Assembly (NCBI GenBank): GCA_016745055.1
Contig: JADGDF010000023.1
Span: 1 to 37,362, forward strand
Origin: Thiotrichaceae bacterium
GTDB taxonomy: Bacteria; Pseudomonadota; Gammaproteobacteria; Beggiatoales; Beggiatoaceae
Direction of reading: 5' to 3'
Length of the DNA stretch: 37,362 nucleotides
Shown here piece after piece: positions 33,712 through 35,288 of the stretch (its first letter is position 1; each line of letters starts with the position of its first letter). The notes beneath the pieces are model-generated. The model saw only the letters and a program-made list of their open reading frames with translations, ran no database searches and was not told the DNA's origin. Both the position numbers and the translations under genes were made by a program.

Positions 33712-34512
33712 ATGCTCATAGAAGCCATTATCTTTGGTGGGACACTGTATTCAAGCTTCAAAATTGCAAAAGCAACTGGCAATGCAAGTACCTTTCATAA
33801 ACCACCTACTTTAAAACATAGACAACAAGACAAAGTTGAAAATACTCAAAATAAGCTAACATTACAAGCTAATTTTAGTATAGCAGCACTTGCTTTTGCC
33901 ACGATGGGACTTTTTTATGCGCCTTTGGGTTTCTTAAGTATCCCTTTTATTGTGGGAGCAAGTTTAGATGTCCATCAAACCACTTATGATTCATTGAGAA
34001 AAAGACAAATTGGGTTAAATGGATTTATGAGCCTAACCATTATTGTCACTGTTTTATTTGATAACTTTTTCCTCGCAAGCTTTTTTGTTTGGTTTATTAA
34101 TTGGACAACAAGATTTTCTACTCATATATTGCAAGGTTTTCGCTTAGATGTCATTGATAGTTTTGCACAACAATTTAGTTTTGTCTGGGTTTTTGCAGAT
34201 GGGGTAGAAATCAAAACTCATTTTGACAAATTAAAAGTTGGAGACCTGATAGTTATTCGTGAAGGGGAAATTGTGCCAGTAGATGGGTACATTGTTAAAG
34301 GCACAGCCACCCTTGACCAACATATTATGGCAGGTAACAATAAATCAGTTGAAAAAGGGCCTGGTGAAAAAGTATTTAGCGCCAGCATGGTAACTTCAGG
34401 CAAACTTTATGTGCGCATTGATAGAATCGGAGAAGAGAGTTCAATTGTTGCCGTTATCTCTAATATGCTCAACACCGAAAATAACTCTTTTGTCAATGGC
34501 ATGACCTTTTAA
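33712..34512 (+). CDS. Truncated P-type ATPase homologue: membrane helices plus actuator domain only
   Basis: 266 residues. Predicted helices lie near 50-72 and 73-85 and a longer pair at 101-135. About 150-245 reads as the actuator domain of heavy-metal P-type ATPases: KLKVGDLIVIREGEIVPVDG, then GTATLDQHIMAGNNKSVEKGPGEKVFSASMVTSGKLYVRI. Two things are missing. The dephosphorylation motif TGES is AGNN (from 207), so the catalytic Glu is lost. The whole phosphorylation/nucleotide part with DKTGT is absent, since the frame ends at 34512. Ion pumping is not possible. It may be a decayed pump or a repurposed regulator. AGAGGG lies five bases before the ATG. It is followed after ten bases by a DUF5989 gene. 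Confidence 0.8.
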   Translation: MLIEAIIFGGTLYSSFKIAKATGNASTFHKPPTLKHRQQDKVENTQNKLTLQANFSIAALAFATMGLFYAPLGFLSIPFIVGASLDVHQTTYDSLRKRQIGLNGFMSLTIIVTVLFDNFFLASFFVWFINWTTRFSTHILQGFRLDVIDSFAQQFSFVWVFADGVEIKTHFDKLKVGDLIVIREGEIVPVDGYIVKGTATLDQHIMAGNNKSVEKGPGEKVFSASMVTSGKLYVRIDRIGEESSIVAVISNMLNTENNSFVNGMTF

Positions 34513-34522
34513 GGATAGAATC

Positions 34523-34675
34523 ATGGGTGAATTGCTATCAGATTTATGGGTATTTATGAAAGTGCGGAAGAAATTTTGGTTACTGCCCATCATTATCGTA
34601 TTACTTTTTGTTGGTGGTTTACTGGTATTTGCAGAAGGTTCTGCAATAGCCCCATTTATCTACACTTTGTTTTAG
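34523..34675 (+). CDS. DUF5989-family small membrane protein (50 residues)
   Basis: A 50-residue protein with the DUF5989 layout. The N-terminal amphipathic segment is ELLSDLWVFMKVRKKFWLLP. One membrane helix (about 20-38, IIIVLLFVGGLLVFA) follows, then EGSAIAPFIYTLF at the end. AAGGA lies eight bases before the ATG. The next gene, mobA, starts one base after its stop, so all three genes from 33712 are likely co-transcribed. The role of the family is unknown; members are often found beside unrelated membrane or biosynthetic genes. Confidence 0.8.
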   Translation: MGELLSDLWVFMKVRKKFWLLPIIIVLLFVGGLLVFAEGSAIAPFIYTLF

Positions 34676-34676
34676 C

Positions 34677-35288
34677 ATGGATAGAAGATGGCTTACAGGT
34701 GTGGTATTGGCAGGTGGTCAAGCGAAGCGCATGGGAGGCATAGATAAGGGGTTACTAAAACTACAAGGACATCATTTAGTTGAATATGTACTGACAGCTT
34801 TACGTCCCCAAGTTGAACATCTATTAATTAGTGCAAACCGTCATTTAGATGTATATGCTGAATTGGGACAATGTGAAGTTGTCCCCGATACTATAGAAAA
34901 TTATGCAGGGCCACTTGCAGGCATGGCTGCTAGTTTGAAAACCATTAATACACCCTACACTTTGTTTGTTCCCTGCGATACACCTTTACTAAATGAGAAT
35001 TTAATCATTCGTTTATTTCAAGCATTAAATAATAAACAAACAGAAATTGTTTTTGCCCATGATGGACAAAGATCGCAGTATCTGTTTACTGTGCTGAAAA
35101 CAGAGCTATTAGAAAATTTATTAGCATTTTTACAATCAGGCCAGCGTAAAGTAGGACTGTGGTATGAAAAAAATAATGCCTATTCGGTTGATTGTGCCGA
35201 TATTGCCCATAGTTTCTTAAATATTAATGCACCTGAAGATTATCAACAACTAGAAAAACTAATTGTAGATAAACAATTAAAGCTATGA
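34677..35288 (+). CDS. mobA: Molybdenum cofactor guanylyltransferase
   Basis: A 203-residue nucleotidyltransferase that attaches GMP from GTP to molybdopterin-Mo, forming the bis-MGD cofactor used by DMSO-reductase-family enzymes such as nitrate reductases. The N-terminal signature TGVVLAGGQAKRMGGIDKGLLKL is the nucleotide-binding loop. Further family parts are VPDTIENYAGPLAGMAASL, the metal-binding VPCDTPLL, SQYLFTVLKTELLENLLAFL and the C-terminal INAPEDYQQLE. Its presence implies molybdoenzymes elsewhere in the genome. It overlaps closely with DUF5989 (one-base gap), so it is probably translated by coupling. Confidence 0.95.
   Translation: MDRRWLTGVVLAGGQAKRMGGIDKGLLKLQGHHLVEYVLTALRPQVEHLLISANRHLDVYAELGQCEVVPDTIENYAGPLAGMAASLKTINTPYTLFVPCDTPLLNENLIIRLFQALNNKQTEIVFAHDGQRSQYLFTVLKTELLENLLAFLQSGQRKVGLWYEKNNAYSVDCADIAHSFLNINAPEDYQQLEKLIVDKQLKL

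Follow-up and report, generated by a model that had tools for sequence, protein, structure and literature searches.

An actuator-only homologue of P-type ATPases with AGN in place of TGE in a member of the Beggiatoaceae, and its stand-alone relatives

A short P-type ATPase homologue upstream of DUF5989 and mobA-like genes

The window, i.e. the whole stretch of 37,362 nucleotides that was analysed (contig JADGDF010000023.1 of a Thiotrichaceae bacterium, family Beggiatoaceae), carries a gene for a short homologue of the P-type ATPases, followed after a 10-bp gap by a gene for a DUF5989 protein (E 4e-25) and, after a further 1-bp gap, by a gene for a MobA-like protein (E 5e-36). The coordinates are collected in Table 1. 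The frame of the homologue is unbroken from its ATG start to its TAA stop, shows a coding-like pattern of codon-position GC and is preceded, a few bases 5' of the ATG, by AGAGGG as a plausible ribosome binding site, in agreement with an earlier note on this DNA in which both frame and binding site were described as looking intact. The range given there (33712-34675) extends over the DUF5989 gene, whereas the homologue proper stops at 34512.

Table 1. Features of the locus, in coordinates of the window
Feature	Position	Strand	Basis or remark
Actuator-only P1B-type ATPase homologue, 266 aa, AGN for TGE	33712..34512	+	Intact ORF, PF00122, A-domain fold
Predicted membrane-helix region	33712..34173	+	Secondary structure of the AlphaFold2 model; topology inferred
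Actuator domain, about residues 157-240	34180..34431	+	Pfam, PDB sequence matches, AlphaFold2, Foldseek
AGN codons, residues 207-209, at the TGE position	34330..34338	+	Alignment to pumps
DUF5989 small membrane protein, 50 aa	34523..34675	+	Neighbour; relatives give a functional link no support
MobA-like NTP transferase	34677..35288	+	Neighbour; unlinked in most relatives

A Pfam search assigned residues 156-257 of the window protein to PF00122 (E1-E2_ATPase; E=4.7e-22; 78.8 bits at a gathering score of 28.1), the match spanning just profile positions 5-106 of 181, i.e. the first 60%. Among solved structures, copper P1B pumps and the isolated actuator (A) domain of CopA (2hc8) come closest. 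With the latter the A domain aligns at E 8e-15 in a sequence search of the PDB, and the A-domain motifs can be followed through to the end of the domain. The AlphaFold2 model (mean pLDDT 83) shows a low-confidence N-terminal helix, four long predicted helices (residues 2-22, 34-66, 70-96, 102-115 and 119-154 for the five together), a confidently modelled A domain and 10 final residues of very low confidence. By their position the helices may be MA, MB, M1 and M2. Foldseek matched the modelled A domain to 2hc8 with a target-normalised TM of 0.79. The proposal that the actuator domain is well formed and that membrane helices are kept is thereby upheld, the helices being predicted.

The protein ends ahead of M3 and therefore lacks M3-M6 as well as the P and N domains; its ORF stops before the M4 metal-binding (CPx-like) motif could appear. 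In P-type ATPases it is the TGE loop of the A domain that takes off the phosphate. The position of this TGE(S) dephosphorylation loop is occupied by A207-G208-N209 in the alignment. The Pfam search gave no HAD/Hydrolase domain (PF00702), the protein has no DKTGT phosphorylation motif and no remnant of a C-terminal half adjoins its gene, and the score with the P1B pump profile TIGR01525 was 77.4 bits at a cut-off of 346.25. Since both the Asp-bearing P domain and the usual Glu are missing, as had been noted before, the protein can neither be phosphorylated nor dephosphorylate a partner in the usual way, and it is thus not a pump. The analysis confirms that the window gene is a real actuator-only P-type ATPase homologue with AGN for TGE.

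Actuator-only relatives within and outside the family

The Beggiatoaceae comprise 25 genera in GTDB (PMC11172852), and our family-level set consisted of 42 genomes from 25 genera, with a single genome for the genus of the window. A first homologue search returned full-length pumps and some short frames; a scan of genome contigs gave no match with a single-protein query and 78 relatives with a profile query, and a plasmid search gave generic metal pumps only. A profile built from four stand-alone short ORFs was searched against the 42 genomes and recovered 13 actuator-only ORFs in six genera, i.e. the window ORF and 12 others in five further genera; lower down the ranking, partial frames and full-length pumps are interspersed. 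Left out were L098, L099, L197, L101, L202 and L095 (broken or frameshifted, with the C-terminal half adjoining), L088 and L126 (cut by a locus or contig end) and the broken copy L270. The many broken full-length copies (L270:1024-1635(-) and the six named first) are in themselves a sign that this gene family is undergoing active birth and death.

All 13 ORFs terminate just past the A domain, and the other 12 have the same architecture at about 250-300 aa. A tblastn search with six C-terminal halves as queries found no P/N-domain remnant beside any of the 13; strong matches came from the Marithrix loci alone and were to full-length pumps separate from the actuator-only gene. A class-wide sample of 369 genomes added two ORFs from outside the family (G181, 263 aa; G218, 259 aa), which likewise end with the A domain. 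Within the family, 12 further genomes therefore have stand-alone homologues with the ending of the window protein, as do two genomes beyond it.

A shared AGN motif, which the earlier note had suggested looking for, was not found. The TGE position reads TQD in G002 and G056 (Thioploca SL_4_0), TSE in G003 and G048 (Ca. Marithrix Canyon 246), TGI in G020 (Thioploca CSMAG_545) and G043 (Thioploca HyVt-590), TGK in G046 and G044 (Ca. Halobeggiatoa HSG11), FKE/LKE in G052 and G053, and TGD in G051 (Ca. Parabeggiatoa HSG14), while SRN and HKK replace it in G181 and G218. The triad is intact in one of the 12, that of G049 (Ca. Parabeggiatoa sp. nov. 3), which shares a 2-residue insert with G051.

Full-length homologues co-occur in the other inspected genomes that have an actuator-only gene, and about 12 intact P-type ATPases (660-890 aa) are encoded in the window genome. 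In some full-length pumps (L191, L007, L002, L203) the M4 motif upstream of DKTGT is degenerate (e.g. YSYLGD, MSSNFGN, NSHIGV, GSCMGD), without the usual Cys/Pro of the CPx type.

Number of origins

In the trees the 12 other actuator-only proteins of the family group together, with two full-length pumps placed weakly inside their clade. The window protein groups with another, full-length subfamily (L009-L014 and L218; a set at 95% SH-aLRT in the last tree), with which it has an MLIE/MIIE N-terminus and a SIPFI..AS.D stretch in common. Forcing it into the main actuator-only clade was rejected in two trees (AU p 0.045 and 0.023), as was a single clade for all 13 short proteins of the class-wide sample (p 0.0008). 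Because the window branch is long (1.5-1.66), its separation from the main clade is held at moderate strength. Its position outside that clade suggests that it was probably truncated independently, which would make the window gene a probable independent case of the actuator-only class. With G181 and G218 as a third lineage, outside the family, the phylogenies indicate that actuator-only proteins probably arose at least three times.

Selection and decay

The dN/dS of the actuator-only genes (NG86) was 0.18-0.35 in eight congeneric comparisons (G056/G002 0.21; G003/G048 0.35; g21 0.18, 0.34, 0.25 and 0.18; g2 0.25; g19 0.30), indicating purifying selection, against 0.06-0.14 for neighbouring genes of the relatives, so that the actuator-only relatives are constrained, though more weakly. 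All 13 actuator-only proteins retain the structural columns E, D, DG, G, Q and K (100%); T, G and E of the TGE triad occur in 77, 54 and 38% of them versus 98-100% in 64 full-length sequences. To judge from the alignment, core columns kept and TGE lost is the pattern expected if the fold, rather than catalysis, were maintained. By contrast, almost all broken full-length copies with frames of similar size still have TGE, and a C-terminal half adjoins most of those inspected. As a general explanation for the relatives, decay is rejected in view of the dN/dS values, the missing remnants and the fact that TGE was lost selectively. A full-length ATPase at the window's locus, named beforehand, along with relaxed selection, as a sign of simple decay, was found in none of the relatives.

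The measured dN/dS covers the relatives only, and it is from them that we infer constraint on the window ORF. This gene could itself be a relic, i.e. a truncated full-length pump that is drifting and open by chance, in which case the conserved clade of the other genera would be a separate matter. A long branch apart from that clade in the sole genome of its genus would fit such a history, as would the frequency of broken full-length copies in the Beggiatoaceae and the fact that none of the pumps of the window genome best-matches the nearest subfamily. Against this, no P/N remnant follows the ORF, the next gene beginning 10 bp past the stop, the codon-position GC is that of a coding sequence and the core residues of the A domain are retained. 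Moreover, when neutral drift was simulated on the ORF, less than 1% of the copies were stop-free by 66% amino-acid identity, a point well short of the observed divergence. Taken together with a branch that is about 1 substitution per site longer than those of the full-length sisters, the simulation makes unconstrained decay unlikely, a late truncation being still conceivable, and we consider a relic improbable. For the relatives there is good support for the retained non-pump function put forward earlier, which is presumed to hold for the window gene as well.

Gene neighbourhood

The earlier note had placed the gene in an operon with DUF5989 and mobA and had taken DUF5989 as its coupled partner. 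In the window the three genes follow each other at the short gaps given above; the relatives differ. Their DUF5989 lies behind a carbamoyltransferase and then SxtJ in most of the loci inspected and never adjoins another actuator-only gene, so that, as far as seen, the window operon is particular to its own genome; coupling to DUF5989 as a conserved feature is rejected in view of the gene order of the relatives. In the relatives mobA is unlinked as well, with the exception of G044, where a full-length pump from another subfamily comes after mobA-mobB; apart from this case, a comparison of coordinates revealed no pump near rpsA or mobA in the relatives.

As to the DUF5989 gene of the window, the order carbamoyltransferase-SxtJ-DUF5989 (PF19451) is absent beside it, i.e. 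the gene is detached from its usual cassette. At another locus (L214, G002:C1:3357500-3369000) a full-length pump of the subfamily nearest to the window protein is clustered with genes for ACP-like, ligase-like, sulfotransferase and carbamoyltransferase proteins, the last of the family that DUF5989 usually accompanies in the relatives.

The surroundings of the other actuator-only genes differ. In both species of Ca. Marithrix the gene lies about 12 bp after an ABC exporter and near a full-length pump, with DUF697 between the two in G048; in Thioploca G020 a WD40 protein and DUF697 are encoded after it; in Thioploca SL_4_0 (G056) a membrane-protein gene is about 12 bp away; and in Thioploca/Halobeggiatoa (g21) no tight operon partner was seen. 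Since the neighbours vary by genus, no conserved partner emerges from them. The DUF697 context, present in few of the 13 genomes only, hints that the actuator-only proteins belong with a pump system.

Two further observations concern the pumps. A protein of 822 aa encoded in another genus, at L219:4017-6482(+) (G005:C129), joins DUF697 to a full-length P1B-like ATPase, and separate DUF697 genes adjoin similar pumps in G048, G052, G049, G041 and G056. Small membrane proteins with an HPV/HPI...G..Y motif are encoded near pumps in three genera (L210:7116-7313(-), L189:13258-13491(-), L132:4160-4387(+)); the two of these that were searched had no Pfam match.

The fact that in three genera a different membrane-protein gene lies only a short distance away (about 12 bp to the Marithrix ABC exporter, 12 bp in Thioploca SL_4_0 and 10 bp to DUF5989 in the window) could mean that an actuator-only protein serves as a scaffold or membrane anchor for local operon partners and not as a regulator of pumps. 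Such partners are, however, unrelated among the genera and missing in others, g21 being an example, and we regard a role of this kind as unlikely.

A proposed non-pump use of the actuator domain

The window protein is probably a retained non-pump protein. As to what it does, our tentative preference, held at somewhat less than an even chance, is that the window gene codes for a P-type ATPase paralogue of the heavy-metal (P1B-like) type that is non-catalytic and has the role of partner or regulator. The protein, consisting of the helices that precede M3 and the actuator domain, would act in trans from the membrane to which it is anchored: the helices and A domain would dock on a full-length pump of their own family encoded in the same genome, or on another membrane complex, and the docked protein would take the place of the pump's own A domain and thereby modulate, lock or scaffold the pump. 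The pump-partner mechanism in particular is possible yet doubtful. The variation of the genomic neighbours by genus, a selection weaker than that on neighbouring genes and the intact TGE of G049 count against the reading as a whole. P-type pumps require an A domain, and split enzymes are known generally, so that the actuator-only protein might instead provide the A domain, in trans, for a split pump with P/N domains from another gene. This is very improbable and is rejected, given that the loss of TGE makes the usual dephosphorylation impossible, that a HAD search of the window genome showed no pump half evidently lacking an A domain and that no separate P/N half lies near the actuator-only genes of the relatives.

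At a more general level, the TGE-less actuator-only proteins might form a recurrent class of pseudoenzymes that derive from pumps and serve in trans to regulate full-length pumps or to assemble them, i.e. an undescribed layer of control; we put this forward as a rather unlikely generalisation. The set of mostly TGE-less, pump-derived actuator proteins itself is real and, apparently, undescribed: our full-text literature searches, which cover few subscription journals, found no description of natural actuator-only P-type proteins. That the A domain and helices are kept, while TGE has repeatedly been lost under maintained selection, suggests a second use for the A domain. Giant sulfur bacteria appear to have repeatedly reduced an ion-pump gene to a membrane anchor and one moving part, which points to a job other than pumping, and the class turns the notion that dead A domains tune pumps in trans into a testable idea.

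Comparison with known systems

The closest sequence relatives of the window protein are the P1B-type heavy-metal ATPases (TIGR01525, ATPase-IB_hvy; e.g. CopA and ZntA), with which it shares the sequence and fold of the A domain and the order of the N-terminal helices, and from which it differs by the absence of M3-M6, the P and N domains and TGE. It has the A-domain fold in common with the CopA construct 2hc8 as well; the latter is a laboratory fragment of a catalytic pump and has TGE, whereas the window protein occurs in nature as the product of a gene and brings membrane helices of its own. MJ0968 is a soluble P-type catalytic domain that is encoded alone, comprises the P/N part and is catalytically competent. 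Both are parts of a P-type ATPase encoded as a separate gene, the window protein being the A part that complements the other and having lost the catalytic triad. In pseudoenzymes such as the pseudokinases the fold is retained and kept by selection, and the catalytic residues have repeatedly been lost. They offer a general analogy for the actuator-only proteins, whose regulatory role is hypothetical.
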